Shown here: positions 14,402 to 57,751 of the stretch, piece after piece
Layout of the letters: each line of letters starts with the position of its first letter
Position numbering within the stretch: the stretch's first letter is position 1
IMG/VR virus record: IMGVR_UViG_3300036853_000133
Location: 1-61,570 of that record
Direction: 5' to 3' (one strand)
Length of the DNA: 61,570 nt
From: a virus
Made by a program: the position numbers and the translations under genes
Notes under the pieces: model-generated
The model's database searches: none
The model's input: only the letters and a program-made list of their open reading frames with translations
Told to the model about the DNA's origin: nothing

Positions 14402-14435
14402 TGGACCGTTCTCGCATACACTTCGACACTCGGGA

Positions 14436-14824: not shown

Positions 14825-14877
14825 TTAGCTAGTGGCGAATATTTCGCTTGACGGCTAGCTTCGCTATCAGCTAAGTT
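14825..14877 (+). promoter_or_regulatory. rightward early promoter with two operators (PR/OR)
   Basis: TTGACG (14848-14853), an 18-bp spacer and TAAGTT (14872-14877) form the rightward promoter. Operator O3 ttagctagtggcgaa (14825-14839) ends 8 bp upstream of the -35. Operator O5 ttcgctatcagctaa (14860-14874) covers the first three -10 bases. A weaker ttcgc...gctag site lies between (14843-14858). The geometry is identical to the leftward promoter, including the 35-bp spacing. Confidence 0.8.
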
Positions 14878-14925
14878 TCTCCCACGAACCCAAAACTGAT
14901 TCACGCCTGAGGGGTTCGGGGGAAG

Positions 14926-15132
14926 ATGAAGATGGCCGAGCGCACGCCCCACACTGTCACTTTTCGCCGCGCCCCGAACATGGACCGCGAGATGGTCACC
15001 AAGTGCAGCGTCAACGAGGCGCACGCGTTCTGCGACAATCAGGCGCGCATGAATATTCTGCACCACACCATTTCCATCGCGGATGCCGATGGCAAGGTTG
15101 TCTACCGCGGCCCCGCCCCTGAGGCCGCGTGA
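14926..15132 (+). CDS. hypothetical protein, first gene of the rightward operon
   Basis: 68 residues (MKMAERTPHTVTFRRAPNMDREMVTKC...). A GGGGGAAG ribosome site lies just upstream; it is spaced better for the second ATG at 14932. It is the first gene after the rightward promoter and overlaps the next gene by TGATG. Function unknown. Confidence 0.7.
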   Translation: MKMAERTPHTVTFRRAPNMDREMVTKCSVNEAHAFCDNQARMNILHHTISIADADGKVVYRGPAPEAA

Positions 15133-15461
15133 TGCGCATCATCTGTTTCAATTGCTGCCAAATCTTTACAGCGCGGAGAGGTCCAGCCCTTCGATGCCCC
15201 GATTGTGCGGCTCTATTCCGCGAAACGGTGAGTCACGTCCGTGTCGTTGTTAAGGCCGCGATCCAAGGAGGTGCTCTCGTTCGACGTCCTTGCGAGGCTT
15301 GTTCTGACATCAAGGCGGACGCTCACCACGACGATTATCGTTATCCGTTGCGAGTGCGTTGGCTCTGTCGAACTCACCATCGGCGATTTCACGTGGCCGA
15401 AGCGCATGCCCATTTTGTGGCAAGCCGCAGTGCCAGCATACAGAACGGAGCAATCTCATGA
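15132..15461 (+). CDS. HNH-like zinc-finger protein
   Basis: 109 residues with an N-terminal CFNCC...CPDC zinc ribbon. The C-terminal part contains CEACSDIKADAHHDDYRYPLRVRWLCRTHHRRFH, the metal-binding core of small phage HNH-like proteins (CxxC, then HHDDY, then CxxHH). A nuclease role is possible but the catalytic geometry cannot be judged. Confidence 0.7.
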   Translation: MRIICFNCCQIFTARRGPALRCPDCAALFRETVSHVRVVVKAAIQGGALVRRPCEACSDIKADAHHDDYRYPLRVRWLCRTHHRRFHVAEAHAHFVASRSASIQNGAIS

Positions 15462-15544
15462 TCTTCCAACTCTGGCCCACTCTTCTCATCGTCATCGCGC
15501 TGGCTGAGATTGTCTATCTATGTGTGAAGCCAAGGGGTGTGTGA
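15458..15544 (+). CDS. 28-residue transmembrane peptide
   Basis: MIFQLWPTLLIVIALAEIVY followed by LCVKPRGV. It is a single hydrophobic helix. ATGA overlap with the preceding gene and TGATG overlap with the next support translation. Function unknown. Confidence 0.6.
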   Translation: MIFQLWPTLLIVIALAEIVYLCVKPRGV

Positions 15545-15798
15545 TGGCCATCCGTCATGAAGTGCTCGCTCGCTTCGTCTTGAATGCGATCAAGGACGCC
15601 TTCGCTTCAGGGGCCGGATCGCGGCACGGAATGCACGTTCGTGGAATCGATATTTACGGCAATGGAGACGTTCGGTTCGACCTTGATGACGGCAGCCGGG
15701 TTTTGGTCGAAGTCCAACACAGGGTTCCGCCTGGATACTTCGGAACGCCCCGCGACGACGGGACTGCTGTTGATCCCGATGGCGAGCCGGGAGCCTGA
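15544..15798 (+). CDS. hypothetical protein, 84 residues
   Basis: Starts MAIRHEVLARFVLNAIKDAF at the ATG overlapping the previous stop. A beta-rich middle (GIDIYGNGDVRFDLDDGSRVLVEV) and a Gly/Pro-rich acidic end follow. No family recognised. Confidence 0.65.
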   Translation: MAIRHEVLARFVLNAIKDAFASGAGSRHGMHVRGIDIYGNGDVRFDLDDGSRVLVEVQHRVPPGYFGTPRDDGTAVDPDGEPGA

Positions 15799-15800
15799 AC

Positions 15801-16022
15801 ATGCCGATCTTCGCAAACCTCACCCCACACGAACGCGCCGCGCTCGCCCGCGCTGCAGATCAGGTTCACGGCGCGCTTGAGCGCCCATGGATCACAGCAA
15901 TGAATGCGGAGCGCGTCGAGATCGAGAACGCGCCCTGCAAGAATGATCGGTTCACGGCCGTTGAACACGATGGATCGTGCCTGCGCTGTGGCGCGGAACA
16001 GGGCGAGGTTTGCCGGTCATGA
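15801..16022 (+). CDS. hypothetical protein with C-terminal Cys pair
   Basis: 73 residues. An N-terminal helix (MPIFANLTPHERAALARAAD) precedes an ENAPCKND...CLRCGAEQGEVC segment, which could bind zinc. Its last codons and the next start lie inside a 22-bp sequence that recurs at the next gene junction (16233-16254). Confidence 0.6.
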   Translation: MPIFANLTPHERAALARAADQVHGALERPWITAMNAERVEIENAPCKNDRFTAVEHDGSCLRCGAEQGEVCRS

Positions 16023-16254
16023 CCATCAAGCTCAGCAACGCCATGCGGCTTATGCTCAAGTGTGCTCCGGAAGACTGGAGCCGGGCGCCGAATGGATCGT
16101 CCGTTGATGCCTTGCGGCGGCGAGGGCTTGTCGAATTCCGGTCAAAGCCAAACGAGTTTGGCACCATGGCTACTATCCAGTGGCGCATTACCGAGACAGG
16201 CCGCGAGGTCGACGGGCGCAAAACAAATCAGAGCGAGGCTTGCCGGTCATGACC
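16003..16254 (+). repeat. 22-bp direct repeat at two successive gene junctions
   Basis: The sequences at 16003-16024 and 16233-16254 match at 21 of 22 positions (gcgagg, t or c, then ttgccggtcatgacc). Each encodes the last residues of one gene (EVCRS or EACRS), its TGA stop and the start of the next gene. This is a possible recombination joint for inserting small genes between conserved stop/start borders. Confidence 0.6.
16019..16252 (+). CDS. small winged-helix-like protein
   Basis: 77 residues starting MTIKLSNAMRLMLKCAPEDW. The pattern SSVDALRRRGLVEFRSKPNE...IQWRITETGREV is that of a winged-helix domain found in small phage and plasmid regulators. ATGA overlaps at both ends. Confidence 0.6.
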   Translation: MTIKLSNAMRLMLKCAPEDWSRAPNGSSVDALRRRGLVEFRSKPNEFGTMATIQWRITETGREVDGRKTNQSEACRS

Positions 16255-16431
16255 GCAGAGCAACGCAAGGCGCTTCAGGTCACAGCCGCATGGCTGAAAC
16301 TCGTCTCCGACCGTTTCGAACTAGATCGCCGATTAACGGAAGCCACGATCCGACACGAGGGCGAAGTCATCGGCACATATTCAATATCGCAAGCTCTCGA
16401 CATGGCGAATGAGGCATTGGAGCCGAAATGA
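16249..16431 (+). CDS. hypothetical protein, 60 residues
   Basis: Helical protein MTAEQRKALQVTAAWLKLVS followed by an acidic half (SISQALDMANEALEPK). It overlaps both neighbours by ATGA. Function unknown. Confidence 0.6.
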   Translation: MTAEQRKALQVTAAWLKLVSDRFELDRRLTEATIRHEGEVIGTYSISQALDMANEALEPK

Positions 16432-16874
16432 GTTTCAAACCACGGAGAATGAAGATGTCTGTGAAACGCCCCGACCCGATCGACATCGAGGTTGGACACA
16501 GGATTCGCATCGAGCGCAACGCGAGGGGCATGAGCCAGACCGTGCTCGCCAACAAGCTCGGCGTGACGTTCCAGCAAGTCCAGAAATACGAGAAGGGCGT
16601 CAACCGCGTCGGTGCTGGCCGGTTGACCAAGATCGCCGAAGTGCTCGGCATCACGGTCGGCACGTTTTTCACCGGCAAGGAAGTTCTCGATACCGAGCAC
16701 AGTGTTGCCAAGGACAACGGCGAGGCATCGCCGCTGCGCTTGCTGACGATTGCCGGCGCGTTCCGCTTGTTGCGGGCTTATTCGCAGATCGAAGACGCAG
16801 CGTTGCAGCGCTCGATCGTGGATCTGGTGGAGCGGATTTCCACGGGTGGGGCGACGGTTTCAGAAGCTGCCTGA
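16428..16874 (+). CDS. XRE-family transcriptional regulator
   Basis: 148 residues with the HTH of a family abundant in alphaproteobacteria: IDIEVGHRIRIERNARGMSQ, then VLANKLGVTFQQVQKYEKGVNRVGAGRLTKIAEVLG (about 19-75). The C-terminal half (LRLLTIAGAFRLLRAYSQIEDAALQRSIVDLVERI) is probably a dimerisation helix bundle. It lies in the middle of the rightward operon and may regulate it or host genes. Confidence 0.85.
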   Translation: MSFKPRRMKMSVKRPDPIDIEVGHRIRIERNARGMSQTVLANKLGVTFQQVQKYEKGVNRVGAGRLTKIAEVLGITVGTFFTGKEVLDTEHSVAKDNGEASPLRLLTIAGAFRLLRAYSQIEDAALQRSIVDLVERISTGGATVSEAA

Positions 16875-16919
16875 ATTCCAATTCCTGCGCCTGCGGAGAA
16901 CAGATAGAGAGGACTGACA

Positions 16920-17456
16920 ATGCGCCTGACAAAAGAAGTGCGCGACCAAATTCATGACGCGGCGTTGAATGCGAGCTTCAAGAAGGAGACCGAAGCACTC
17001 ACCAGGCAGGAAACCAAGCTCACTGCGCTTTGCTACAAGAGCTTGTTCCTGGCATCTGCGCGGGCCGCCGCAGCCGCGATGCCGAAGGGATGGATTCCCC
17101 AGGCGAACAGCTTCCTTCTGAATATTAGCGGCGAGCAGATACGCCTGACGTCGAAGGAGTTGTTTCTGGTCCCGACGACGCACCACCATCACGAATCCTA
17201 CGTGCTCAAGAACGCTGACCTCGCGGCCGAAGTCCGCGCATGGGCATACGCGAAGGAAGACCTCCGCACCCGCCGCAAGCAGGCCGGCGCCGCGTTGTCC
17301 GGCATGCTGCTCTCAGTCAGCACCATCAAGAAGTTGTTCGAAGTCTGGCCCGAAGGTCAGGCGTTCTACAAGAACGTGGCGCCGTCGCCGATCAATCTCC
17401 CGGCTGCTCACGTCGGCGAGGTGAACAAGCTACTGAAGCTGAAAGCCGCAGCCTGA
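16920..17456 (+). CDS. Nmad5-like putative nucleotide-modification-associated protein
   Basis: 178 residues opening MRLTKEVRDQIHDAALNASF and closing VWPEGQAFYKN...LPAAHVGEVNKLLKLKA. The ends and the SVSTIKKLFEVWPEG segment match what I remember of the Nmad5 family, found in phage loci with DNA base modification genes. The biochemical role of the family is unknown. The assignment is from memory and could be wrong. The ParB-like gene follows. Confidence 0.5.
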   Translation: MRLTKEVRDQIHDAALNASFKKETEALTRQETKLTALCYKSLFLASARAAAAAMPKGWIPQANSFLLNISGEQIRLTSKELFLVPTTHHHHESYVLKNADLAAEVRAWAYAKEDLRTRRKQAGAALSGMLLSVSTIKKLFEVWPEGQAFYKNVAPSPINLPAAHVGEVNKLLKLKAAA

Positions 17457-36052: not shown

Positions 36053-37195
36053 ATGAACGTCGCCGCAAACACGAAATTACCGATCTCCCCCTATATCCAG
36101 GCAAATCCGACACTGTCGGCCCTCACGTCATTGCGGTTCATCGCCGCTGCCATGATCGTAGCGCTTCATGCCCAAGGCCATTTCGGCATCCCGGCAGGGA
36201 TCGCAAGCACCTATTCGCTCGGCGCAGGTGTAACGATCTTCTTCGTGCTGTCTGGGTTCATCCTGACTTACGTCTACCCGAACCTGCGTGCAAGCGGCGC
36301 GACGCGGCGTTTTCTGGTCGCGCGTGTTGCTCGAATCTGGCCGCTGCACGTAGCCTCCAGCCTATTCGTCATGTGGCTGTTCGGCTGGTTCCAACTCGAT
36401 CAGCAAAACGCCGCTTGGCGTATCGTGATCAACTTGACCATGACGCAGGCATGGATTCCGCTGGCGCAAATCGGTTCGATCAACGGACCGGCATGGACGA
36501 TCTCGACCGAATTCGGTTTCTATCTCCTGTTCCCGTTTCTGATCGCCGACTTCGCCAAGACTTGGTGGTGGAAGCTGTTGATATCCGCCGGTCTCGCTGG
36601 CGTCATGGTTGGTATCACCGCGGCATTTTCGATGCCCTTCGGAGGGAATGAGGGAGTGAACGGGGCCGCGCTTGTCTACATGCACCCCTTCGGCCGCCTG
36701 CTTGAGTTCGTCATCGGCATGTGCACCGCGTTGGCGTGGAGAAGTTTTAAGCCGGCGCGGTCGATGAATGTCTGGTACGGCACCGCGATCGAAATTTCTG
36801 CCGTCGGTGCACTGTTCCTGAGCATCCAGCATCTAACCTTAGGGGACATCAACAATCCGCTGATCCGATGGTACCATACTTCGCTTGAGCCAGCCATGCC
36901 GGCCGCAGCGCTGATCTTCGTGCTCGCCTCCCGCTACGGATGGATCAGCCGCGCGCTCGAATTCAAATGGATCGAGACGCTCGGAGAGGCATCGTATGCC
37001 ATCTACCTCTTACATATGCCGCTGCTTTTGTACTATTGGGGCGTGATCGCGCCATCTCAGGTGCCGCAGTGGGCGCAGCTTTCGATATATTTGTGCGTAC
37101 TTCTAACGGTATCGTTTGTCTTCTGGCAGGGTATCGAGAAGCCAGCGCGCAGAACACTTGTGCGCACGTTTGGCTGCGGCACTCAGTACAACTGA
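36053..37195 (+). CDS. oac-like: acyltransferase family 3 (O-acetyltransferase-like)
   Basis: 380 residues with about ten hydrophobic helices. The N-terminal signature of family 3 membrane acyltransferases is clear: LTSLRFIAAAMIVALHAQGHFG, TIFFVLSGFILTYVY, RFLVARVARIWPLH, and later NGPAWTISTEFGFYLLFPFL, ASYAIYLLHMPLL. Catalytic His and Arg residues of these motifs are present. Homologues in P22-like and Shigella phages acetylate O-antigen and alter phage adsorption. Orientation against the late operon is typical of a moron expressed in the lysogen. Confidence 0.9.
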   Translation: MNVAANTKLPISPYIQANPTLSALTSLRFIAAAMIVALHAQGHFGIPAGIASTYSLGAGVTIFFVLSGFILTYVYPNLRASGATRRFLVARVARIWPLHVASSLFVMWLFGWFQLDQQNAAWRIVINLTMTQAWIPLAQIGSINGPAWTISTEFGFYLLFPFLIADFAKTWWWKLLISAGLAGVMVGITAAFSMPFGGNEGVNGAALVYMHPFGRLLEFVIGMCTALAWRSFKPARSMNVWYGTAIEISAVGALFLSIQHLTLGDINNPLIRWYHTSLEPAMPAAALIFVLASRYGWISRALEFKWIETLGEASYAIYLLHMPLLLYYWGVIAPSQVPQWAQLSIYLCVLLTVSFVFWQGIEKPARRTLVRTFGCGTQYN

Positions 37196-40100
37196 TAAAT
37201 GTTGAGTTTGGAAATCTCCGCTCCGCCAAGAAAGAGTGGCGAGGGTCCGCTGGAAAATCCGAATAGCTCAATGTAATCGGACGATCCGTTCATCTCTACC
37301 AGAGCCGGAACGGACAACTGCATTGCGTCTGTTGCCGATGTTGGCAGAATGAATTTGTTATACTCCGTCCCGTTTTTATAGATAGCGATTCCGCCATAAG
37401 AACCAGCACCGACAGCGGTGTTCGTTGATCCGACAACAGAGAAGACACCCGCCACGTTCGGCTGAAAGCGATAGTTTGTTGCATTGTCGAACCATCCGTT
37501 GGGGTCAGACACTTCGGTATTGAGTTGGATCTTGACCCACGAACCGGCGGATGGCGTCTGATTGGTCGATCTATATGCATTCAAAACCAGAGCAGACTTG
37601 CCAGCATGCGTGATCGTGTTGCTCGCACCATCGATCGTCTTGTTTGTAACCGTGGCGGTGGATGCCGCTCCAAGCAGCGTGTCTGTTGCGCTGGCTGGAA
37701 GTGTGAAAACACCAGACCCTGCAACAGATGGCGCCTTTATTGATGATGTGCCGCTCGTGAGCCCATTGAGTGCAAGTCCGTTTCCGTCAAGAGACGCGTA
37801 CACACTTCCAAAGCCACGCCCGGACCAGCGGTGCGTTGTCTGGCCCCAGTTCATAAGCGCGCCAGCGGCACTACCCATCGATCCGACAAGCGTGTTGTCG
37901 AAGTCGTAGAAATAGACATTCGAGGCGCCGGTATCCCGCTTGGCGAACGCGCTCGATCCAAACCAATATCCGTCCGTCGTACTCGCAGACGACGCACTAC
38001 TGCCTGTAATGACCTTAGTAGAAGTCACATTCCGAATGGTCGTATCACCACTGGCATCGCGCGACACCAACGTGCTTGCCGTAGCCGCATTGGCGACCCC
38101 TGTGCCTGTCGGAAGACCATTGATGACAGGAGTCGTTAGTGTCTTGTTGGCGAGGGTCTCAGATCCCGACAAAGTCGCCAGGGTGCCCGTGGTGGGCAAC
38201 GTGACGTTTGTCGTTCCTGTCACCGTGAGCGTTAACGCGAACGCACCGGAGGTGACGAGATTTCCACCGAGCGTAATCGTGTTCGATCCATTATTGACCC
38301 CAGTACCGCCCTGCGCCGATGTCGCGACACCGGAGAGGTTACTGAATGCCGGCTGCGCCTTGCTGATTGCTCCGGTCAATGGGTTGATGGCAGTCAGAAA
38401 GTTATTCGAGGCCCCGCTGTCTCCGACCACGGTGGTACCGACCACACCAGCGCTGTTCTTGTCGTGAAACCTCAAATCAGTGCTGTCACCCCAAACATTG
38501 AGCGACCCGGACGCGGGAGAAGACGGCGCAGCAACATTCGTCCAGGTCCACCCAGACGATCCAAGTGATGCGTATGTGCCGCCATATCCGCGAGATGACC
38601 AACGATGTGTCGTCTGCCCCCAATTAATGAGCGGAGTCGCACTACCTCCCAACGCGCCAATCAGTGTATTGTCGTAGTCAAACAATTCAACACCCAGCGC
38701 GCCGCTGTCTCTCTTTGCGAACGCGCTGGCGCCAAACCAGAACCCGTTCTTTGTGTCTCCAGAGGATGAACTGTTGCTGGCCCGAACCGCAGTGTCCGTC
38801 GTTGTGACATTCAGGATGCGACCGAGCAGGCCGGGTGCTCCGATCTGCGGAGCGATGAAGTTAGCGCTCGGCGCACCGCTGGTGTAATTGGCCTCTCCGA
38901 CCTGGTAATCGTTATTTGCGGTCGTATCCTCAATCGTGTTTTGCCCAACTGTAACGCCCGTCGTCAGTGACCCATCCAAGATGACGCTAGCTGAGAGCGT
39001 CGTATCACCGATGTTGCAGTTGCGCAGTTTGTTGCCCTGCGCCGAACCACCGGTCGTTCCCACGAAATAGATGCAGGTGCCGAACGGTGAATCAATCAGA
39101 TTTCCGACCACGCTCGTATTGATCGACGGCGGACCATTGTCCGATGAAACGCTGATGCCGACATCGCCGCTGGTTGAGTCAAACGTCAGATCGTTATTCG
39201 AAATGATGACATTCACACCGGAATCCGTGTGGACCCCTTCGGTGGCTGTGTACCTGATCACATTCCCGGTAATGGAAACACGCGCGCCAAGACCCGAACT
39301 TATGCCGAAATGGCCGGATCCGAGAATTTGATTCTTGCTGACCACAACATCGCTGGCGCCGATGAGTACTATCGCTTGGCTATTCACTGACGCGCTTTTG
39401 TAGAGCGTATTACCCGAAATCGTCAGTCCATTCGGCCCGTTCGACGTATAGGAGTGCGCTCCGCTCTGCGATCCGCTGGTGTTGATCGCGGCGCCGCCCG
39501 ATGTCAGGCTCAGCGTAAACGTATTGGCTGTGGGGACCGTCTTGACATAGTAGACGCGGCCCGACACCAGCGGCGTGTAGAGCGACCCGGTTGAATAGAT
39601 GATGACCGTATCGCCAACGGCGAGCCCATGTGTTGTCTTGGTAAAGACCGCTGGACTTGCCGATGTTACGGTGAACGTCGAGGCAGCAGAGCCATCCGAC
39701 GTTGCAAAGATGCCGCGACCGAATGTTGTGCTTTCGAATCTGTTGTCGAGAACCTGAGTATTTGAACTGCGTCCAACAAGAACCGGAAAGATACCGCTCA
39801 GCGACGAATTCTTGACGACCGCGTCCACCGTCCCCGAGAACAAGACGCCATTCGTGGTCGTATACGTCGAGACATCCACGCTGATCGTGAGATTGTCGAT
39901 TGTGAATCCGGACGTATTGCCGGTGACGCTTACGACCGCCGTGCTGGACGCGTAAGTTCCTCCTGCAATGATGGTGCAATTGCGCAAGCTGCGCGCGGTG
40001 ATCGGAACAACGATTCGCTCGCTGTAAAAGACGCTCCCGGGATTGCAATAGACATCCGACGACGCTGCGAGTGCATTGGCAAATGCCGTTGCATTGCTTG

Positions 40101-40449
40101 CTGCCACGCCGGCCGCGTTGCTATTCGCAACGGCGCCATAATCAACAGGCGTAACACCGCGTTCCTGAAGAGAGGCAGAAACAGTGCGGGTCGTGCCACC
40201 CGTGCCGCTCGGAATCCAGGATACCGACGCCGCCGATGCAGAGCCGCAGACGGGATCGGCGGCAACGCCTGCACCGATCATTGGAACGCCGGCAAGACAT
40301 GGTCCCAAAGTCTTGAACGAACCAGATCCAGCGCCGCGGCTGACAGGAATGCCGTGCTCGGCCACACCCATCTGCGCGAGAACAGGAGACGCAGCAAAGA
40401 CCAGCGCAAGCACAGTGATCGCACGCAGTGCGCGTGTCATGAACGCCAT
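37183..40449 (-). CDS. tail fibre/tailspike-like protein with signal peptide and beta-helix
   Basis: 1088 residues. The N-terminus MTRALRAITVLALVFAASPVLAQ reads as a Sec signal. A pectate-lyase-type right-handed beta-helix follows (about 105-540: TIIAGGTYAS, VVKNSSLSGI, ITGNVIRYTATEGVHTDSG repeats). Two copies of a 70-residue module lie at about 570-640 and 865-935 (WFGASAFAKRDSG/WFGSSAFAKRDTG, NWGQTTHRWS). A C1q/TNF-like jelly-roll C-terminus (about 960-1088) ends NIYQLY. Beta-helix tailspikes bind or cleave surface polysaccharide. It converges with the acyltransferase gene, 13 bp overlap. Confidence 0.85.
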   Translation of the reverse strand: MAFMTRALRAITVLALVFAASPVLAQMGVAEHGIPVSRGAGSGSFKTLGPCLAGVPMIGAGVAADPVCGSASAASVSWIPSGTGGTTRTVSASLQERGVTPVDYGAVANSNAAGVAASNATAFANALAASSDVYCNPGSVFYSERIVVPITARSLRNCTIIAGGTYASSTAVVSVTGNTSGFTIDNLTISVDVSTYTTTNGVLFSGTVDAVVKNSSLSGIFPVLVGRSSNTQVLDNRFESTTFGRGIFATSDGSAASTFTVTSASPAVFTKTTHGLAVGDTVIIYSTGSLYTPLVSGRVYYVKTVPTANTFTLSLTSGGAAINTSGSQSGAHSYTSNGPNGLTISGNTLYKSASVNSQAIVLIGASDVVVSKNQILGSGHFGISSGLGARVSITGNVIRYTATEGVHTDSGVNVIISNNDLTFDSTSGDVGISVSSDNGPPSINTSVVGNLIDSPFGTCIYFVGTTGGSAQGNKLRNCNIGDTTLSASVILDGSLTTGVTVGQNTIEDTTANNDYQVGEANYTSGAPSANFIAPQIGAPGLLGRILNVTTTDTAVRASNSSSSGDTKNGFWFGASAFAKRDSGALGVELFDYDNTLIGALGGSATPLINWGQTTHRWSSRGYGGTYASLGSSGWTWTNVAAPSSPASGSLNVWGDSTDLRFHDKNSAGVVGTTVVGDSGASNNFLTAINPLTGAISKAQPAFSNLSGVATSAQGGTGVNNGSNTITLGGNLVTSGAFALTLTVTGTTNVTLPTTGTLATLSGSETLANKTLTTPVINGLPTGTGVANAATASTLVSRDASGDTTIRNVTSTKVITGSSASSASTTDGYWFGSSAFAKRDTGASNVYFYDFDNTLVGSMGSAAGALMNWGQTTHRWSGRGFGSVYASLDGNGLALNGLTSGTSSIKAPSVAGSGVFTLPASATDTLLGAASTATVTNKTIDGASNTITHAGKSALVLNAYRSTNQTPSAGSWVKIQLNTEVSDPNGWFDNATNYRFQPNVAGVFSVVGSTNTAVGAGSYGGIAIYKNGTEYNKFILPTSATDAMQLSVPALVEMNGSSDYIELFGFSSGPSPLFLGGAEISKLNIYQLY

Positions 40450-49386: not shown

Positions 49387-49784
49387 TCTGCCGATCTCTT
49401 CTTGATCGATGCCGTGATCTTGCGCTTCATCGCCGAGACGATCTTCCTTTTGCGCAGACGATAGGTCGGAAAGAAAAACGGCTTGGCCGGCATCTTCTGC
49501 GTGCCGAATTCATCTGCCCTCGCGTAGTCGTAGGGCTTCGATGATATAGCTGTTCGAACCGTCAACCTACCGCCAGCGACAACACGAACCTGCGTATCGA
49601 TCTTGCCTGGTATGACATTGACGGAATGCTCAAGGTTTCCTGTTTCACCCTTCGGGGCGACGCTTTCGATCAACGCTGCAAGGCCGAGCGCCTGATTGTG
49701 CAACTCGCTGACCGCGCCGTCATGAACCTCTTGCTTTAGGTTATCGATCAGCTTCTTGAATCGTTCAACGCTGGCGTTCGCCAT
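49383..49784 (-). CDS. HK97 gp10-like tail/neck protein
   Basis: 133 residues: helical N-terminus, IESVAPKGETGNLEHSVNVI and YARADEFGTQKMPAKPFFFPTYR, the core of the HK97 gp10 family (head-tail joining). Basic C-terminus. Confidence 0.8.
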   Translation of the reverse strand: MANASVERFKKLIDNLKQEVHDGAVSELHNQALGLAALIESVAPKGETGNLEHSVNVIPGKIDTQVRVVAGGRLTVRTAISSKPYDYARADEFGTQKMPAKPFFFPTYRLRKRKIVSAMKRKITASIKKRSAE

Positions 49785-50137
49785 TATGTCGCAACCCCAG
49801 CGTCACATTCCATGTCGATGAATTTGTCTTTCTCATCCGGGTTCACGATCGAGCGGATATTGTATATCGTCCCCGAGCGCACATCGCGTGCACGCCATTC
49901 CGACTTGACCATGCGCATATTGGATGACGATCGAACCGTGATGACCACCGGCTGAGACCCGGCGAGCCTCGCGGCCTGGATCGTCTCTCCGCCTCGCGCC
50001 GGCTTGATCCGTGCCGCCGCCCTGAAGCGCTCGACCCAATCCGCCTGCGAATTTCCGTATCCATCCGATTGCAGCGCACGCTGATCGAATGCAACGATCT
50101 CCCGCAACCCGCCGGCCGTTGTTCTATCCTGCGCCAC
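49784..50137 (-). CDS. head-tail adaptor
   Basis: 117 residues. LREIVAFDQRALQSDGYGNSQADW and VRSGTIYNIRSIVNPDEKDKFIDMEC match the phage head-tail joining (Gp16/adaptor) family. Confidence 0.82.
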   Translation of the reverse strand: MAQDRTTAGGLREIVAFDQRALQSDGYGNSQADWVERFRAAARIKPARGGETIQAARLAGSQPVVITVRSSSNMRMVKSEWRARDVRSGTIYNIRSIVNPDEKDKFIDMECDAGVAT

Positions 50138-50140
50138 GAT

Positions 50141-50326
50141 TCAGCGGCCAACGGGAAGAGCTTTGATGCGGTCAGATTGCGCCGGCTTTGTCATCCTGGC
50201 CTTGCCGGCCGCAATCGCCGCGTCGCCACAAGCCTGAGGAACGGCCATTTCCATGCCCTTCTTGTACGCAATTGTCGTTCTGGGGTTTGGATGCCAATCG
50301 AAGTCGGCGATGAATTTAACGCGCAT
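50141..50326 (-). CDS. small conserved phage protein
   Basis: 61 residues starting MRVKFIADFDWHPNPRTTIA. The VKF..DFDWxPxPxxTIAYK pattern with AIAAGKA is a short protein frequent in the head-connector region of rhizobial phages. Function unknown. Confidence 0.7.
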   Translation of the reverse strand: MRVKFIADFDWHPNPRTTIAYKKGMEMAVPQACGDAAIAAGKARMTKPAQSDRIKALPVGR

Positions 50327-51170
50327 GCTCGCCCCTGTAGCGTTCGAAAGCAGCAACGATCGAATGCCTGTCGTCGCTCTCCCATACCAAACGCTGCGTT
50401 TCCAGTGCACCAGGCACTTGCCCGCCGCGATCAATCCCGCTTGCAAAGAAATGAGAGCTACGCGCGGCAGGATTATTCGACTCATCATTGATCGGCCGAA
50501 AGATCAGGCAGGGCGCCCCAAGACCAATCGCCAGCCATGCCGGTCCGCTCGATACGAACAGATTGCAGAACGCAGACGCGTATAGATTGGCCCGCGCAAC
50601 TATGCCTGTTGAGGCTTGCGGTATAGTACGGAACCCGCCGATAGGCGTATGCGCCTGAAGGCTGTCCCGCACGAATAACACCTTGAACCCACTCCGCTGG
50701 ATCTCCCCTGCGGCATCAATCCATTCCTCTTTGTCACTGTTGCGCTCAGGCCAATGCTCACACTCACGAAGCGTGATCGTGACAAATCCCTTCTCGGCAA
50801 CCGGACAAGGAGCGCGCAGCGTCGCACCCGTCTTCGACATAGCCTCGACAAAGACTCCAAGCCCGTACAGACGATCAAGGTTTCCGATCGATGGAGCCTT
50901 CAGAGCCCCGCGTTCGCTGCGCTGTGCGCTAAGACACGACGGCAATAGCGAGCACATTGGCATGACGAGGTTGTTCAGCAGGCCTTCACGCTCGGCAACC
51001 GAAAACGGCCACAATCGATCACGCCGAAAACCGCCAACCGTACCTGGAAGAAACTCGACGCTGCAATGGGTTTCCTGACGCCTGATCCGCTCGCACTCCA
51101 CATGCAGCAGGAACGACACGAAGTCATATGTCGGGGGACACAGCGCAAGATCGTAATAAGCCGTCAGCAT
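50316..51170 (-). CDS. uncharacterised protein, possible glycosyltransferase-like fold
   Basis: 284 residues. The C-terminal region NLFVSSGPAWLAIGLGAPCLIFRPINDES has the nucleotide-sugar-binding feel of GT-B enzymes (heptosyltransferase-type FVSxxS...A..LGxPxL). The rest is unassigned. It is the last gene of the inserted glycan cassette and overlaps the small connector-region gene. Confidence 0.5.
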   Translation of the reverse strand: MLTAYYDLALCPPTYDFVSFLLHVECERIRRQETHCSVEFLPGTVGGFRRDRLWPFSVAEREGLLNNLVMPMCSLLPSCLSAQRSERGALKAPSIGNLDRLYGLGVFVEAMSKTGATLRAPCPVAEKGFVTITLRECEHWPERNSDKEEWIDAAGEIQRSGFKVLFVRDSLQAHTPIGGFRTIPQASTGIVARANLYASAFCNLFVSSGPAWLAIGLGAPCLIFRPINDESNNPAARSSHFFASGIDRGGQVPGALETQRLVWESDDRHSIVAAFERYRGEHAR

Positions 51171-52217
51171 TCAGGACCGACCTGAAGCAGATCGCGCATG
51201 CATCAGCAATCTGGAACTCGTGACCTCGACATCATGCCATTGCGCTTCATCGCTCACTTGGCGCTTGATCCGAAGCGCAGTTTCCGAGAACTTGATCTGC
51301 TGCGGATCGGCCCGATCCCCGACGAACCGGCGCAGGATCGCGTTTCTATTGCCACCCCGCATCCGTGAATCAACATGCGTGTCGTGCAGCGAGAACACCA
51401 TCACGTCATCTGAATCCACTGCATGCACGACCTTGCCGTTCTTTGCGATCTCTGACGTGTAGTGCCCATCGAGCGTGCCGTTCGTGATTCCCCGCTTGTA
51501 GTGCGCATCGTCGCGCTTTACCCGCAACACCAGCGCCGTCTGATGATAGGCCCGAACGACAGCCCCGTCTTCCCCGACCCGAAACAGCAGATATGATGGA
51601 AAATGTGTGAACGATGGCGCATCCCAATAACGATAGCTTGCCTCACGATGCAGCGAAGACAGACAGATATCCGCGAGCGCCCGCGGCGTTACATCGATCG
51701 TATCACCCGATCGCCATCCCTCAAGCGCAGCTTTGCCAACCTGCAAATCGACCGGCATGCAAAACCCGAGAACCGCATCGACATCGTCGCCTAACAACCG
51801 GACCGCACCAGGCAGCGCACCATTTGCCCAGACGAAATCCGCATAATTGAAGATCAGCGCGTCATGCTCGCCGGCCCGTACCATCGCGAGGTTCTGCAAC
51901 AGCGTCAGGAACCCGTACTTGCGAGCGTCCGTGTTGCTTGGTCCGTCACCCAGATCGAGATCTTCAAACCAGTCCCACGCAATCGTGCAATGCTCAGCAA
52001 GCCTCGCGATCACCGGCATTGCGTTCAGCTTCTGATAGTCCGCATACGATGTCGCGATATGAACCGTGATCGCGTTGTCGCGCGCAAGCGCCGGAAGATT
52101 CCCAGACGCAAGCAGACTTGCAAACGAAAACCGCGCCAACAGTTCAACGTTCTTGTCACCCCATGCGGCGACAGACAGGCAGATATTCACGACGCCATCT
52201 TCAAAACGCGATGCCAC
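51171..52217 (-). CDS. glycosyltransferase-like protein
   Basis: 348 residues. VNICLSVAAWGDKNVELLARFSF, NAITVHIATSYADYQKLN, HDALIFNYADFVWANGALPG and a VFSLHDTHVDSRMRGGN end. It resembles GT-A-type transferases with an acidic NYAD site in place of DxD. The tentative role is sugar transfer. It overlaps the GT2 gene by 31 bp. Confidence 0.5.
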   Translation of the reverse strand: MASRFEDGVVNICLSVAAWGDKNVELLARFSFASLLASGNLPALARDNAITVHIATSYADYQKLNAMPVIARLAEHCTIAWDWFEDLDLGDGPSNTDARKYGFLTLLQNLAMVRAGEHDALIFNYADFVWANGALPGAVRLLGDDVDAVLGFCMPVDLQVGKAALEGWRSGDTIDVTPRALADICLSSLHREASYRYWDAPSFTHFPSYLLFRVGEDGAVVRAYHQTALVLRVKRDDAHYKRGITNGTLDGHYTSEIAKNGKVVHAVDSDDVMVFSLHDTHVDSRMRGGNRNAILRRFVGDRADPQQIKFSETALRIKRQVSDEAQWHDVEVTSSRLLMHARSASGRS

Positions 52218-53311
52218 CCCGGAACGTCCACACCCGAACCGATCGCGCTCAAGACCTCGACAAGCGGAAGATCAGAGGCCTCGATCAGTTTGCGATTCTC
52301 ACGCGAGAGCGGCACGCCCTCCATCGCCTTCAAAAAGTCATCGGCCGAGATCGGCGGCAGCATGATATCGCTGATATCGCCCATCGCGTTCGTGGCGAAC
52401 CATCCCCACTTGTGCGCGATCTTGTTGCACATGAAGAGCTTGAACACCGCACGCATCATCGCATTGCGCAGCTCTATGAATTCCACATTGTCGCCGAACG
52501 CCGCGTTGATCGAGGCGACGCAATCCTGCAGATGCGCGAGCTGCGTTCCACGATGGCTGGCGTTGTTGCGGTCGACCGCCGTCATCACGCACGGCTCATC
52601 GAGATAATACACATCGCCCTGCGTCGCGGCGCCGGCCAGGATCGCGTATCCCGCCTGCCAGCGCACGCCGTCAGCGCGACCGAGCGAGCCCGACGCCTTG
52701 AACTTCACGGTATCGAACACCGTCGCGCCGATGACGATGTTGCGGTTCTTCGGATCTTGCGCGAAGAGCCTGAGATATTCGGTTCCGCGGATGAACCCCG
52801 GCGGGAAGAGCGTACCCCAGAACACCTGCGTCTTGTCGACGTCCAGGAACGAGTAGCTGACGTAATCCTCATTCGGAGCGAGCTTCGGCACGGGATGCGG
52901 ATAGCAATGCACCATGCCACCTTGGACGAACGCGATCGAGCGATGTTTGGTGAACGCTGCGACCGCTCTGCTGATCAGGTTCGTTGGCAACCAATAGTCG
53001 TCATCGCAGAGATAGACGAACATGTCGCCATCGCAGAATTCTTCCAGGAAACGCTTGATGATCGCAAGGTCGCCCGACTTCGAACCGACATTGACCTCGT
53101 TGCGAACGTAGCGAAGACGCGGGCTCACGAACTCGGCCACGACATGCGGCGTGTCATCCGCCGAACAATCGTCGATCACGACAACGTCAATGTTGTCGTA
53201 GTCCTGCGCCAGCACCGACGCCAGTGCGCGACGCAGCAGCGCTGACCGATTGAATGTCGTGATCAGAACAGAGACTTTTGGCGCCACGTTCGGAGCTTTG
53301 ACCGGATTCAT
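52187..53311 (-). CDS. family 2 glycosyltransferase
   Basis: 374 residues. The GT2 N-terminus is clear: KVSVLITTFNRSALLRRALASVLAQDYDNIDVVVIDDCSADDT (about 12-55), with the metal-binding CDDDY (DxD-type) near 103. The C-terminal half (about 220-374) is a separate helical region. It would transfer a sugar from a nucleotide-sugar donor. ATGA-coupled to the O-methyltransferase gene upstream. Confidence 0.88.
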   Translation of the reverse strand: MNPVKAPNVAPKVSVLITTFNRSALLRRALASVLAQDYDNIDVVVIDDCSADDTPHVVAEFVSPRLRYVRNEVNVGSKSGDLAIIKRFLEEFCDGDMFVYLCDDDYWLPTNLISRAVAAFTKHRSIAFVQGGMVHCYPHPVPKLAPNEDYVSYSFLDVDKTQVFWGTLFPPGFIRGTEYLRLFAQDPKNRNIVIGATVFDTVKFKASGSLGRADGVRWQAGYAILAGAATQGDVYYLDEPCVMTAVDRNNASHRGTQLAHLQDCVASINAAFGDNVEFIELRNAMMRAVFKLFMCNKIAHKWGWFATNAMGDISDIMLPPISADDFLKAMEGVPLSRENRKLIEASDLPLVEVLSAIGSGVDVPGWHRVLKMAS

Positions 53312-54081
53312 GCGTGCGAGAACCCCAAAACGCGCGCCAGATGTTGCGCCGGGAGCGGATGATCCTCAACTCCCGCTGCTGCGCGATACACGATCAGCAA
53401 ACCATTGCCGATCGGGAGCAGTAGCGTTCCGATGTCGGACCTGCCCTGATAGTGGTTCAGCAGATCGCGACAACCCACGCCCTTCGCCGTCGTCGGCTCC
53501 TTGTTGAGCGCATCGCCATGAAAAAAGACATCGTCGACAACGAGCATCCCACTTTCGCTCAACAACGCCTCGCACGTCTGCGCGGCCACCAGATAGTCTT
53601 GCTTGCCGCCATCGAGAAAGATCAGATCGAACTTGTGCGGCAACATCGCAAGGCTGGCCAGCACCGATCTTCCTTCCCCCTCCATCAGCGTGATGCGGTC
53701 CGACAGACCGTTGGCGGAGAAATTCTGTTCGGCCAGATGTGCGAACTCCGAGCCGCATTCGATCGTCACGATACGCGCATCCTCACCCGCAGCCTTGACC
53801 AGATGCATGGTCGTGTGACCGATGAAGGTCCCGATCTCGAGGATCGACTTTGCACCCGTCGCCTTGATGAGGAACACCAGCAGCGACAACGCCGCGGGCG
53901 TGCTGCTCATTTCCTCAAAGCCGACATGCGCTGGTGTCTTCAGACGGAATTGGTCCGGCGAACGACCCGCTGAAAACTCCATCACAGATCGCGCGATCGC
54001 CAGGCTGTATCCTCCACCCTCGAAAAGGCGCGAAAAATACGGCTGCGTCGGCAGCACCTTGTCGCAATAGCGGATCGACAT
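53308..54081 (-). CDS. class I SAM-dependent O-methyltransferase
   Basis: 257 residues starting MSIRYCDKVLPTQPYFSRLF. SAM-binding motif ILEIGTFIGHTTMHLVKAAG, acidic strand IVTIECGSEFAHLAEQN and FDLIFLDGGKQDYL match the catechol/caffeoyl-CoA-type O-methyltransferase family. Likely methylates a sugar or small molecule linked to the adjacent GT2 product. First gene of the glycan cassette in transcription order. Confidence 0.85.
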   Translation of the reverse strand: MSIRYCDKVLPTQPYFSRLFEGGGYSLAIARSVMEFSAGRSPDQFRLKTPAHVGFEEMSSTPAALSLLVFLIKATGAKSILEIGTFIGHTTMHLVKAAGEDARIVTIECGSEFAHLAEQNFSANGLSDRITLMEGEGRSVLASLAMLPHKFDLIFLDGGKQDYLVAAQTCEALLSESGMLVVDDVFFHGDALNKEPTTAKGVGCRDLLNHYQGRSDIGTLLLPIGNGLLIVYRAAAGVEDHPLPAQHLARVLGFSHA

Positions 54082-54092: not shown

Positions 54093-54704
54093 TCAGCGAT
54101 AGACGCGCAGCTTGTCGCAAAGAGATTTCACGCCAGGCGCCAGATTGGACAGCGCTCCCACCGTCGTCTCTTCGCGGTTTTCGTACCAATGCCCGACCAG
54201 CAGAAGCACAGCGGCACGGGCGAGATATGGCAAGCGCAAATCCGGATCGTCGCCCGTTCCGGTATGGCCCGGCACGTCAAACCCCGCATCGAAGGTCACG
54301 AACACCGTATCGCGCCGCTCATTGAGAAGCGTTGGCCATGAATACGACCGCACGAACGAGACCGTTCCCTTGCCCTGCGTGTTCCGCCGCCACATCCATT
54401 GATCCGCGGCGATCGTCTGTTCCGCGCCGTTCGCATCCAAATATTTGACGCTCTCGACATCGCGCACGGGCGCTGCCGGCAGATCGAGGTCATGGCAGCA
54501 ATGACACGGCCAGCCTTCCATCCGGAACTGAACGGTTGCCGGCGCAAGCCTAAGGTTGGTCTCACTCTCCACGAACTCGATCGCGGTCCTCAGATAGACC
54601 TCGATCATCACATCGTCATCGGTAAAATCAGCCGTGCGCGTGTGCGCCTTGGCTTCCGCCATCGACACTGCAAGTTCTGAGGCCGGTATGATCGTTGCCA
54701 GCAT
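54093..54704 (-). CDS. HK97 gp6-like head-tail connector
   Basis: 203 residues from ATG 54704 (ATG 54719 also possible). IIPASELAVSMAEAKAHTRTADFTDDDVMIEVYLRTAIEFVE and ARAAVLLLVGHWYENREETTVG are diagnostic for the gp6-like connector family. It forms the ring under the portal. The 5' end overlaps the frameshifted frame ending at 54628. Confidence 0.85.
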   Translation of the reverse strand: MLATIIPASELAVSMAEAKAHTRTADFTDDDVMIEVYLRTAIEFVESETNLRLAPATVQFRMEGWPCHCCHDLDLPAAPVRDVESVKYLDANGAEQTIAADQWMWRRNTQGKGTVSFVRSYSWPTLLNERRDTVFVTFDAGFDVPGHTGTGDDPDLRLPYLARAAVLLLVGHWYENREETTVGALSNLAPGVKSLCDKLRVYR

Positions 54705-55577
54705 CGAGCGCAGCCTCAAGTGTTGCGAACGGAAACGCAGTCAGTGCGGAATCAGGATTGGCGTTGAAGACTCTCACACCAAGCACATCAAGATCAGGCG
54801 CCGCTGCATGGAAGGCGCGGCGCCAACGAAACAGATTCGCCTCACTCGGATTGTTCAGGCCGCGCTGGTGACGGCCGTGCCAGTGAATTCCGCGGTCAAG
54901 CCGCATGTCGAAGCCGACAAGGATGATCTTCGAGGCTCCGAACTGAACCACAATATTGAGCGCCTGGAACCCTGAGTTACCGCCATCCCCAACAACACCA
55001 GCACGGGCCGTGAGTATCCGATCCGATTGCTCTTCAACCGTGATGTTGTTCAGCGCCAGAAATTGAGTGCATGCGCCGTTGTCGTTGGTGATCTTCGTTC
55101 CTGAAAACTCCGGAACTCCCTCTCGCGCCTTCCACCAATTGCCGTCGCATCCGTAGAGAACATCAGCCCATGGACACAGCCGCCACGATTCGTTGATGGC
55201 TATAAATCGAGCGCACCCGCGGAACGCTTCGAGGTTTGCCGACGCGGCTGACGGACCTGATCCGACGATGATGGCGCACTCGCCGCGCCAGTCTCGCCAC
55301 CAGCCGAAGCTAAAGGGCCGGATGTGGCCGCCTTGTTCTGTGGCGCCGGCTCCATCTTGTTGACCGGCAAGGGCGCCATCTTGTCGGCGCGAATTTCATC
55401 CAGCTTCGACGCAGGAAGCGGAACAGCAAGACCTGCGCGCTCCATCTCGTTAGCGCGGGGCTCAGTGGCACAGAAAAATTCAGAGCCGGCATCAATGTAC
55501 CAGGTTCCGTCCGGCTGCTGGACGCCCTCGCCTGGACTGCCGTTGTAGGATTTCAGGGCCTTCATTCGGATTCGCAT
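54628..55577 (-). CDS. predicted -1 frameshift fusion: capsid-region protein plus MptE/DUF115-like domain
   Basis: Predicted 316-residue product. Residues 1-89 come from the 55200-55577 gene; a -1 slip at 55317-55311 then enters the frame ending at 54628. The second part begins SFGWWRDWRGECAIIVGSGPSA and continues with RFIAINESWRLCPWADVLYG, GGNSGFQALNIVVQFGASKIILVGFDM and GIHWHGRHQRGLNNP. This is a Rossmann-like phage protein with the GxGPSA motif of MptE/DUF115-type domains, some of which occur in Maf flagellin glycosyltransferases. The downstream frame has no ATG, GTG or TTG before GTG 54951, which is inside the conserved domain. Either frameshifting, a non-standard start or a sequencing indel must explain it. 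Confidence 0.6.
55200..55577 (-). CDS. small capsid-region protein, zero-frame product
   Basis: 125 residues (MRIRMKALKSYNGSPGEGVQ, PDGTWYIDAGSEFFCATEPRANEMERAGLA). The first 60 residues look like a conserved head-region protein. From about residue 85 the sequence becomes low-complexity Ser/Ala/Gln because it is an out-of-frame reading of the downstream domain. ATG 55565 is an alternative start. It lies just after the major capsid gene. Confidence 0.7.
   Translation of the reverse strand: MRIRMKALKSYNGSPGEGVQQPDGTWYIDAGSEFFCATEPRANEMERAGLAVPLPASKLDEIRADKMAPLPVNKMEPAPQNKAATSGPLASAGGETGAASAPSSSDQVRQPRRQTSKRSAGALDL
55311..55317 (-). promoter_or_regulatory. candidate -1 ribosomal frameshift heptamer C-CCT-TTA
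   Basis: In the zero frame codons 87-89 read GGC CCT TTA, so CCCTTTA has the X-XXY-YYZ phase required for simultaneous -1 slippage (Pro CCT to CCC, Leu TTA to TTT). The next codon after slipping is AGC of the open downstream frame. About 28 nt further a hairpin TGGCGC-ggcgagt-GCGCCA could slow ribosomes, though its spacing is longer than usual. Confidence 0.6.
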
Positions 55578-55653: not shown

Positions 55654-57012
55654 TTACGTCGTCGCCTGGAAAGTGCCGTAGATGAAGGCTTGCGGCCGAT
55701 AAATCGCGAGGGCGAGCCGCTCTTCCGCGCGGATCGTGACGAGGTTCTTCACGAAGTTGTCGTTGTCTTCGGTCGACACCTCGACGTTCGCGTCTTCGCG
55801 ATCGAACACCTGGGCACCCAGCTTGAACGCGCCGGTCAAGAACTTGGTCACGGTCATTGCCGGGGTTGCAACGACAGGGCGGCCCCAAAGCGTCGGAGAC
55901 GTGACGGTCTGCGGGTTGGTGAAGATATAGCGCCCCTCGTTGTCTTTCGTCAGCTCGATACGCGCCCAGTCGGTCGGGTTGATGACGATGCCGGTAGCCG
56001 GCAGCAACGCCAATTCAGACTGAAGGATCGCCAAACGAATGGCGTCGATGCGGTTCGGAGTTTCCGGCGCGAACGCCGCCGAATATGCGGTCGCCTGCGT
56101 GACAAGGCCGCTGAGATGATTGCCAAGGCCAGAGCCCAGCAGCAACTCGGCTTCCTCCACGTAGGCGAGACCGTAACGCAGACGGCCGTCGATCTGCGAC
56201 TGCAACTGCGGAAGATCGTCCAGGATCTGCTTGGATGCGCGAATCCAGTGCGCGATCGTCGCGACGTTGGCGGTCACGAGCTGATCGACAAGCGTCGACT
56301 CCGGCTTCGTGACGCCTTCCGAGACGACCGCGGCGTTGTTCGTGAACGAGGTCTCCTGCACGTATTGCACCGCATTCGAGTTGGTGCGACCAGGCGTGAG
56401 AAGATCGCGCACCGTCATGCGACGTTCCGGCGGGATGAGTACGCCGGGCTGACGATCCGGGGCCACAACGGCGCCGGTCATCGACGCAGTCGTGATCGCC
56501 TTCACGTCGATGCGAACGCGACCGCGGGCCTTGCTGCTCTCCGCAGCGAACTGCTTGACCTTGTCGTTAGCGACGAACTGTTCGCCCGGGGACATCTCCT
56601 CGATCGTGCGTTCGTGCTTGTGGCCGCCAGCCATCTTCTGTTCGAGTTCAGATGTGCGCGCCTTCAGCTCGTTGATCGTATCCGGCATCTTCGCCAGATC
56701 CTCGATCTGCTTGCGCAGCTCGCCCTGCTCGGCGATGGCCTTGTCGGTCTTCTCCTTGAGGTCGCCCGTGATCTTGTCGCCGGCCTCGCTCTTGGTCTTG
56801 TACTCCTTGCCGAATTCCTTGACCTGGCCGGTGACCTCATCGAGCTTCTTCGTCAGCGCAATGATGTCGTCGGCCGTGAAGCCGCCGCCGCTTCCGTCTT
56901 CGGCCTTGAAACAGATTTGCGGACGGCCAATCTGCCGCATTCCTGTCGGCACGGCACAAAGCCATGCGGCGCCGCCCGACATCAGGGCCGCGTGCAAAAT
57001 CAGATTCTTCAT
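55654..57012 (-). CDS. major capsid protein (HK97 fold)
   Basis: 452 residues from ATG 57012. Residues about 40-150 are a charged coiled-coil scaffold (delta) domain (KKLDEVTGQVKEFGKEYKTK). The HK97 shell domain follows: LIPPERRMTVRDLLTPGRTN, ETSFTNNAAVVSEGVTKPES, VATIAHWIRASKQILDDLPQL, GIVINPTDWARIELTKDNEG, GAFKLGAQVFDREDANVEVS. The first 25 residues are hydrophobic (MKNLILHAALMSGGAAWLCA), odd for a scaffold; another start may be used. Confidence 0.92.
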   Translation of the reverse strand: MKNLILHAALMSGGAAWLCAVPTGMRQIGRPQICFKAEDGSGGGFTADDIIALTKKLDEVTGQVKEFGKEYKTKSEAGDKITGDLKEKTDKAIAEQGELRKQIEDLAKMPDTINELKARTSELEQKMAGGHKHERTIEEMSPGEQFVANDKVKQFAAESSKARGRVRIDVKAITTASMTGAVVAPDRQPGVLIPPERRMTVRDLLTPGRTNSNAVQYVQETSFTNNAAVVSEGVTKPESTLVDQLVTANVATIAHWIRASKQILDDLPQLQSQIDGRLRYGLAYVEEAELLLGSGLGNHLSGLVTQATAYSAAFAPETPNRIDAIRLAILQSELALLPATGIVINPTDWARIELTKDNEGRYIFTNPQTVTSPTLWGRPVVATPAMTVTKFLTGAFKLGAQVFDREDANVEVSTEDNDNFVKNLVTIRAEERLALAIYRPQAFIYGTFQATT

Positions 57013-57028
57013 CGCTGTGAGTCCTTTT

Positions 57029-57751
57029 TCAGATTTCCAGTTGGGTGAAGCTGTCGACGCGCTTGCGGAAATCCGCGAGCGCCTTTGCGACAGCAGGATT
57101 CGCCTCATCACCCCCAGACTCACTCCGGATGGCCTTCGCATAACCGACAGAGGCGATCTGTACGGCCATACTCTTCGGGACCCCTGCCTCACGCAGGATG
57201 TCCTCAAATTCCTTGGTGGGAAGCGGCTCGCCGTCGCGTAGTTTTCGCGCCAGAATTTCCAGCTTGCCCCATGCGTCGCTCTTCACAGCCTCTACCAATG
57301 CGCGGCGATTGGCCGGAAACGAAACGATGGATACTTCCATCAGATCGAGCTTGATCAGCTTGCGCGGCTCACCATCCTTCGATGGCTCAACATCAACTTC
57401 CCGGTATCCGATCGACATGCCGCGAACGGCCTTCGCCTTGAGCAACGCATGCGTCTTGTCAGCAGTTGGGACATTTTGATTGATCAGCAGCCCGCCTTCG
57501 GAATAGAGCCCCTTGCCATCGTCGGAGAAGTCATCCCAGACGCCGATCGGCTCATCCGAATTGTGCTGCCATAGCATCAACGGATAGCTTCCTTCGCGCT
57601 TATGACGCGCGAGAGAGTCCGAGAACGCGCCGGGAAGCACGACCTCGTTGTAACTGTCCCTGACGTTGAACACGGAAGCATAGCCCTTCAGCTTCCCGGC
57701 TTCGTCAAGAGCCTTGACTTCGAACCCGAATGCTTTGGTTTTCATCGTCAT
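57029..57751 (-). CDS. prohead protease (S78/HK97 type)
   Basis: 240 residues. KGYASVFNVRDSYNEVVLPGAF, LMLWQHNSDEPIG with the catalytic His of the QH motif, AVRGMSIGYRE with the catalytic Ser, and LMEVSIVSFPANRRA. It cleaves the capsid delta domain during maturation. ATGA-type overlap with the portal gene. Confidence 0.92.
   Translation of the reverse strand: MTMKTKAFGFEVKALDEAGKLKGYASVFNVRDSYNEVVLPGAFSDSLARHKREGSYPLMLWQHNSDEPIGVWDDFSDDGKGLYSEGGLLINQNVPTADKTHALLKAKAVRGMSIGYREVDVEPSKDGEPRKLIKLDLMEVSIVSFPANRRALVEAVKSDAWGKLEILARKLRDGEPLPTKEFEDILREAGVPKSMAVQIASVGYAKAIRSESGGDEANPAVAKALADFRKRVDSFTQLEI

Follow-up and report, generated by a model that had tools for sequence, protein, structure and literature searches.

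Glycosylation of the virion is established in mycobacteriophages (Freeman et al. 2023, cited in PMC12691614 and PMC12619734), where, according to the available portion of PMC12619734, glycans are found at the C termini of capsid and tail-tube subunits. Phage head and tail proteins extended by frameshifting are also known: the T7/T3 coat extension, those of Lactobacillus phage A2 and Listeria phage PSA, and gpG-GT of lambda all appear in the available part of PMC5009743. The window analyzed here is the whole of IMG/VR virus record IMGVR_UViG_3300036853_000133, 61,570 bases in length. On its minus strand, between the gene for the gp6-like connector and that for head closure, lies a compact, co-directional cassette of four genes, which encode an O-methyltransferase, a GT2 glycosyltransferase, and proteins of 348 and 284 amino acids. 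Upstream, an MptE/Maf-like domain occupies the −1 frame of a small gene that follows the capsid gene. We think it probable that the cassette is a late, soluble phage module for glycan modification, led by the MptE/Maf-like enzyme that −1 frameshifting would produce, and that a virion protein is its target. As in the mycobacteriophages, at least as the accessible text presents them, glycans would be carried on virion proteins. The gene content, its recurrence, the Maf-like fold, the frameshift signature and the absence of strongly hydrophobic segments were established by computation.

The small post-capsid gene and the Maf-like domain

In its zero frame the small post-capsid gene encodes a protein of 125 amino acids, an N-terminal domain followed by a Ser/Thr-rich tail (55200..55577; features are on the minus strand unless a sign is given). 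The MptE-like frame is the −1 frame of this open reading frame (ORF). Counted from the slip codon the domain spans 229 amino acids (54628..55317; phrog_4603), and the first ATG, GTG or TTG codon of the frame occurs only at 54951, well within the domain. A slippery heptamer, C_CCT_TTA (55311..55317), is in phase in the small ORF, as −1 frameshifting requires.

The −1 layout is common to 17 distinct loci, including those of the isolated phages D3 and S20. These were drawn from 26 distinct groups of MptE-bearing loci, designated here by L numbers. L014 was omitted as a near-copy of L013, L018 as an in-frame fusion, and L019, L020, L028, L031, L128, L002 and L009 because their MptE-like genes are not −1 extensions of a small ORF. 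The 17 loci are partly related, L013 and L015 being 84% identical in MptE. In 14 of them no ATG, GTG or TTG precedes the GPS motif, although rarer start codons remain possible. Heptamers of the form X_XXY_YYZ lie in phase, 30–66 nucleotides 5′ of GPS, in 8/17 loci and in either other phase in 0/17. Under a synonymous-codon null that preserves the −1 protein and the codon usage of each locus, the mean number is 1.1, and 8 was reached in none of 3000 simulations. The heptamers are CCCTTTN in four loci, GGGAAAA in three and CCCAAAG in D3; since they differ and encode different residues, they do not reflect one conserved amino-acid motif. The Pro codon at the junction is CCC in all 10 loci tested, where CCC makes up 4–36% of Pro codons. 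An upstream AAGGCGG sequence was considered as a Shine-Dalgarno-like stimulator and is not claimed, because it may simply reflect a QNKAA-type motif that is present also in the MptE-free locus L051.

The first-pass annotation had described an MptE/DUF115-like frameshifted protein upstream of the cassette. The gene is real, and its layout in 17 loci together with the in-phase heptamers points to programming, not damage; it is best read as a case of conserved programmed −1 frameshifting, from which synthesis of two products is predicted. The MptE-like genes of D3 and S20 are both annotated with starts 3′ of the GPS motif. In the D3 record (L126, 5391–9443) orf7 is annotated to begin at 5951, after a GPS motif at about 5873, and the sequence suggests that orf7 is probably the −1 extension of orf6.5.

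The tail of the unshifted protein is richer in Ser+Thr, in 16 of the 17 loci, than when the −1 protein is recoded at random with synonymous codons. A matched downstream stretch, in which the zero frame is non-coding, has no such excess (8/17, combined p 0.64), and the paired difference between tail and matched stretch gives p 1e-4; these p-values are only a guide, because related loci are not independent. Of 35 MptE-free control loci, 7 have the small domain on its own directly behind the capsid gene.

Evidence for the fold comes from L018, a relative in which the small domain and the MptE-like domain are naturally fused in frame. The fusion was modelled from 21 sequences with a mean predicted local distance difference test (pLDDT) score of 83.5, and the score exceeds 90 across most of the MptE-like domain. 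The top structural match is the Maf glycosyltransferase 5mu5 (Z 14.9, 185 residues aligned, 3.3 Å, 17% identity), followed by the sialyltransferases CstI (Z 12.1) and CstII (11.6) and by HPPK (11.5). The model supports the assignment, made earlier from the window sequence, to a fold that includes the Maf flagellin glycosyltransferases. In the window itself the domain scores 21.2 bits against PF01973, under the 34.6-bit cut-off, and is therefore called Maf-like rather than a member of the Maf family. When the MptE profile was searched against PDB sequences, it returned only chance-level matches plus sialyltransferases at E about 0.8. Given the glycosyltransferase and methyltransferase genes nearby, glycosyl transfer is the likely activity of the domain.

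The cassette and its recurrence

The first gene of the cassette encodes an S-adenosylmethionine-dependent O-methyltransferase of 257 amino acids (53308..54081, with its ATG at 54081), which scores 90.8 bits against PF01596, above the cut-off of 22, and matches O-methyltransferases among PDB sequences at E 2e-17. The GT2 glycosyltransferase (374 amino acids; 52187..53311) scores 79.9 bits against PF00535, above the cut-off of 23.3, and resembles SpsA (E 1e-10). Pfam gives no match for the two remaining products. The 348-amino-acid protein (51171..52217, likely start GTG 52190) lies outside known families: it has no NCBIfam family, no match among PDB sequences and none in a profile comparison with GTx, and its one relative given here is L002:7022–7936, at 25% identity. 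The 284-amino-acid product (50316..51170), 44% identical to its homologue in L002, is a putative GT-B-type glycosyltransferase that matches the TIGR04372 glycosyltransferase at E 0.0032 and 17 bits, under the cut-off of 45. As queries, the 348-amino-acid protein and its L002 homologue brought up no match among viral contigs or phage records, nor did the GT2 and 284-amino-acid proteins among phage records. Among 397 genomes of the order Hyphomicrobiales, a relative of the 284-amino-acid protein occurs in one and a relative of MptE in four.

All four genes are where the first-pass annotation placed them, between connector and adaptor, and the close coupling it described holds, as the genes overlap or abut. 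The methyltransferase and GT2 genes share an ATGA overlap, read from the sequence; the GT2 and 348-codon genes overlap, by GTGA if the latter starts at GTG 52190, as the L002 homologue suggests; and the TGA stop of the 348-codon gene abuts the ATG of the next. The maximal 19-residue hydrophobicity mean of the cassette products is below 1.8, so that no strongly hydrophobic segment of the membrane-anchor type is present; the MptE/Maf-like domain has none either. By Pfam and hydrophobicity the cassette contains no GtrA/GtrC-type membrane protein, and so it lacks the make-up of a Gtr-type seroconversion unit.

Searches recovered the MptE-like gene from 76 phage records, from 18 viral and 4 genome contigs, and from further loci. 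Glycosyltransferase and/or methyltransferase genes, in non-orthologous sets, accompany it within the block of head, neck or tail genes in 25/25 distinct MptE-bearing loci with enough sequence, drawn from such unrelated phages as S20, the D3 group and CcrBL9 and from IMG/VR and prophage loci; the 26th group, L055, is not countable because its sequence ends soon after gp6. This tally was made by hand. Some labels derive from local profiles, GT9 and GTx, whose names follow the annotation of depositors; the methyltransferase of L128 was assigned by visual inspection, on its sequence and its resemblance to that of L127. Outside the 26 groups stand L080, with a remote MptE match, and the P1-like phages, where the MptE relative of phage RCS47 (L010, 3929–4591) is annotated as PmgO, a putative morphogenetic protein.

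The insertion point varies. The gp6-to-head-closure interval is used in the window, S20, L013, L015, L026, L029, L030, L032 and L127; the site directly behind MptE in L011, L019, L031, L064, L077, L097 and L128; and the closure-to-gp10 interval in the D3 group and in L028. The search for the same cassette in related phages, which the first-pass annotation had proposed, thus found the position again but with different genes. Behind a tail gene of Caulobacter phage CcrBL9 (L009, 4025–8514), the genes in a row are one MptE-like, three unassigned, one for a methyltransferase and one of the GT9 kind. In L002, a very different phage with another order of head genes, MptE-like, 348-like and 284-like genes are consecutive; three of the window's genes therefore travel together.

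To obtain controls independently of the cassette, loci were anchored on the capsid protein. Of 80 viral loci 40 were kept, the others being removed for a major capsid protein at least 90% identical or for less than 4.5 kb of sequence downstream. All three MptE-bearing loci in this set carry a GT9-like gene, two of them also a methyltransferase, as against cassette genes in 2 of the 37 MptE-free loci (Fisher p 0.001). The gp6 and closure genes were both detected in 28 of these 37, separated by less than 150 bp in 21. The earlier statement that the connector block is normally uninterrupted is accordingly sound for MptE-free capsid relatives but fails for MptE-bearing phages. Because the local hidden Markov models had been derived from families that neighbour MptE, control and positive ORFs alike were also scanned blind with Pfam. 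The controls were unlabelled ORFs of at least 130 amino acids within 4.5 kb of the capsid gene in 35 loci without MptE, glycosyltransferase or methyltransferase labels; these 84 ORFs matched 22 families, none of them a glycosyltransferase or methyltransferase. In 63 ORFs of 18 MptE-bearing loci the scan found Methyltransf_23 in nine, Methyltransf_24 in seven, FkbM in three, GT9 and GT2 in two each and GT-D in one, plus hexapeptide acetyltransferase matches. NCBIfam identified two NanM-like sugar O-methyltransferases and one NeuD-like acetyltransferase among the ORFs of MptE-bearing loci, and placed the S20 GT-D gene nearest the SP_1767 glycosyltransferase family (E 1.2e-27, under that model's cut-off).

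Several other loci may be recorded here. GT9 and methyltransferase genes stand right after the capsid gene in L096 (4442–5931) and L118 (2196–3688), which have no detectable MptE-like gene. The gp6–closure interval of L112, a locus likewise without a detected MptE-like gene, contains a Pfam-negative ORF of 256 amino acids (10678–11448) that looks Rossmann-like by eye. A further locus, L117, has in the same gap (12345–16949) large ORFs that appear by eye to be structural or fibre-like, not enzymes.

Along the minus strand of the window the structural genes run in the order terminase-like ORF, portal, protease, capsid, 125-codon ORF, MptE-like frame, gp6-like connector, cassette, head closure, gp10-like protein and tail terminator. 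The ORF for the HK97-like major capsid protein (55654..57207, TTG start as listed) matches PF05065 at E 4.7e-57, and the gp6-like head–tail connector (54093..54719) matches PF05135 and phrog_442. A small ordinary phage gene, its true start probably internal (50141..50488; phrog_29233, E 5e-13), lies ahead of that for the head closure (Hc1) protein (49784..50137; PF05521, E 7e-17).

Elsewhere in the window a PF01757 acyltransferase gene (36053–37195, plus strand) adjoins the gene for a beta-helix tail protein (37183–40449) and, from its sequence, looks like an O-acyltransferase of lysogenic conversion. The phage is probably temperate, since it encodes a tyrosine-type integrase (PF00589; 26460–27641, plus strand). 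A C5 cytosine DNA methylase gene adjoins an MT-A70/DUF3102 gene (4543–7331), a homologue of the DNA polymerase III beta sliding clamp has two domains over the Pfam cut-off (8308–9405), and an ORF of 1021 codons (11046–14111) has no Pfam match at E 0.001.

Proposed action and alternative explanations

The late genes would encode enzymes that are cytoplasmic when heads assemble. The lead enzyme would be the Maf-like domain, which a −1 frameshift would add to the small post-capsid protein; tethered in this way, it may act on a virion protein. The GT2 enzyme, the probable GT-B enzyme, the O-methyltransferase and one unassigned protein would then probably extend and cap the glycan during head assembly. 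The likeliest acceptor would be a virion protein, and here the strongest single candidate is the small protein in its unshifted form, with its Ser/Thr-rich tail. The first-pass annotation had suggested possible glycosylation and methylation of capsid or tail proteins, or late modification of host surface glycans. Late action in the cytoplasm is supported by where the genes lie and by their products having no strongly hydrophobic segment; the timing itself we infer, along with the sugar, the acceptor and the benefit, which might be shielding or a change of the virion surface. A more specific proposal, which we put forward only tentatively, is that one overlapping gene supplies both an acceptor and its enzyme. 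In-frame translation would yield a head-associated protein with a Ser/Thr tail, and a slip would yield the same anchor with the Maf-like domain. A few enzyme-bearing copies could then add sugar to the tails of adjacent copies as the head assembles, while the cassette would extend and methylate the glycan.

Several observations weigh against modification of a virion protein by a frameshifted enzyme. At 9/17 junctions a canonical heptamer is not present in the interval tested (six of these have CCCTAY and one CCCTTC), and downstream RNA structure is inconsistent, with fold z-scores from −3.5 to +1.8 across 10 loci. L018 is without the unshifted tail, and no −1 extension of a small ORF accounts for the MptE-like frame in L019, L020, L028, L031 or L128; the tail therefore cannot be the sole acceptor everywhere. 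Foldseek alone places HPPK first and Maf third for the L018 model, and HPPK, which is no glycosyltransferase, belongs to the same fold group. Since that group spans glycosyltransferases and a pyrophosphokinase, the fold alone is no proof of glycosyl transfer. Neither the 348- nor the 284-amino-acid product fits a curated family above cut-off. The AlphaFold model of the former, from a two-row alignment, has a pLDDT of 29, and a profile comparison of the latter with the GT9-like cassette alignment A8 gives a probability of only 8.6 and E 0.004. In P1-like phages the MptE relative has no glycosyltransferase or methyltransferase neighbours annotated.

The main rival explanation, which we regard as somewhat unlikely, is that the cassette modifies host surface glycans (lipopolysaccharide, capsule or exopolysaccharide), whether at a late stage of infection or during lysogeny, and so blocks superinfection or aids progeny release. 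A GT2 enzyme and an O-methyltransferase are indeed also a toolkit for decorating polysaccharides, the phage is probably temperate, and the 284-amino-acid product is weakly TIGR04372-like, with relatives that resemble lipopolysaccharide heptosyltransferases. However, the genes are embedded in the head–neck block rather than set apart as a unit, they offer no strongly hydrophobic segment and no GtrA/GtrC-type Pfam match, and a host-surface role leaves unexplained why frameshifting ties the lead enzyme to a post-capsid protein. The separate acyltransferase gene on the opposite strand, beside the tail beta-helix gene, fits a change of host surface better. It is quite doubtful that the cassette is selfish cargo, or has some other late function such as methylation of tRNA or small molecules, in a gap that tolerates insertion. 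Such a gap is suggested by the fibre-like or unrelated ORFs that fill it elsewhere (L117), and the methyltransferase does match YrrM (E 6.5e-14) and tRNA 5-hydroxyuridine methyltransferase as well; yet differing sets of glycosyltransferases and methyltransferases are tightly associated with the MptE-like gene, and cassette genes are present jointly with it in L002.

The enzymes might instead glycosylate or methylate bases of the phage DNA, which we consider very unlikely. Besides the cassette, the window encodes a C5 DNA methylase and carries an MT-A70 gene, but DNA-modifying genes usually sit with replication genes, and no thymidylate-synthase-like gene was found in the record by a search that was positive in 9/14 control genomes. 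Some viruses do encode glycosyltransferases for the hypermodification of DNA (Pyle 2024, as cited in the accessible text of PMC12619734). Finally, a single metagenomic record could contain an indel, so that the break in the MptE frame might be a sequencing error or the mark of a decayed gene, with the cassette as unrelated cargo. This explanation is hardly credible: it is contradicted by the −1 layout in 17 loci, D3 and S20 among them, by the in-phase heptamers in 8/17 and by the one in-frame fusion.

Comparison with known systems

In the literature searched, which left subscription papers mostly uncovered, we found no description of a conserved-frameshift enzyme domain with variable cassettes of glycosyltransferases and methyltransferases in the head–neck block. 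Unlike the mycobacteriophage systems, as far as the available text of PMC12619734 describes them, the module proposed here would be led by an MptE/Maf-like enzyme fused through frameshifting to a post-capsid protein, and it includes methyltransferases and non-orthologous glycosyltransferases. Sugar-coated virions would be relevant to host range, to immune recognition in phage therapy and to counter-defence. The closest folds to the MptE-like domain are Maf 5mu5 and the GT42 enzymes CstI and CstII; relative to these the window domain is shorter, phage-encoded, apparently made by frameshifting, and sub-threshold for PF01973.

Pseudomonas phage D3 has the same small gene with an MptE-like −1 extension (orf6.5/orf7), and GT9-like and methyltransferase genes in its neck block (orf12, orf13). 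It differs from the window in the site of its cassette, which follows head closure and precedes gp10, and in that its genes are annotated as unrelated ORFs. If the cassette does glycosylate a virion protein, D3 would be a genetically tractable Gram-negative model of phage virion glycosylation. The same reading would account for genes that currently carry the labels "alpha-2,3-sialyltransferase", "PmgO" or hypothetical; among these, the genes of D3 and S20 are annotated with starts 3′ of GPS. As in T7/T3, A2, PSA and lambda gpG-GT, to judge from the available part of PMC5009743, low-level frameshifting would give a structural or assembly protein an added domain. In those cases the domain is Ig-like or a chaperone, whereas here it is enzyme-like, a putative glycosyltransferase; frameshifting in phage heads would thus extend from structural domains to an enzyme.

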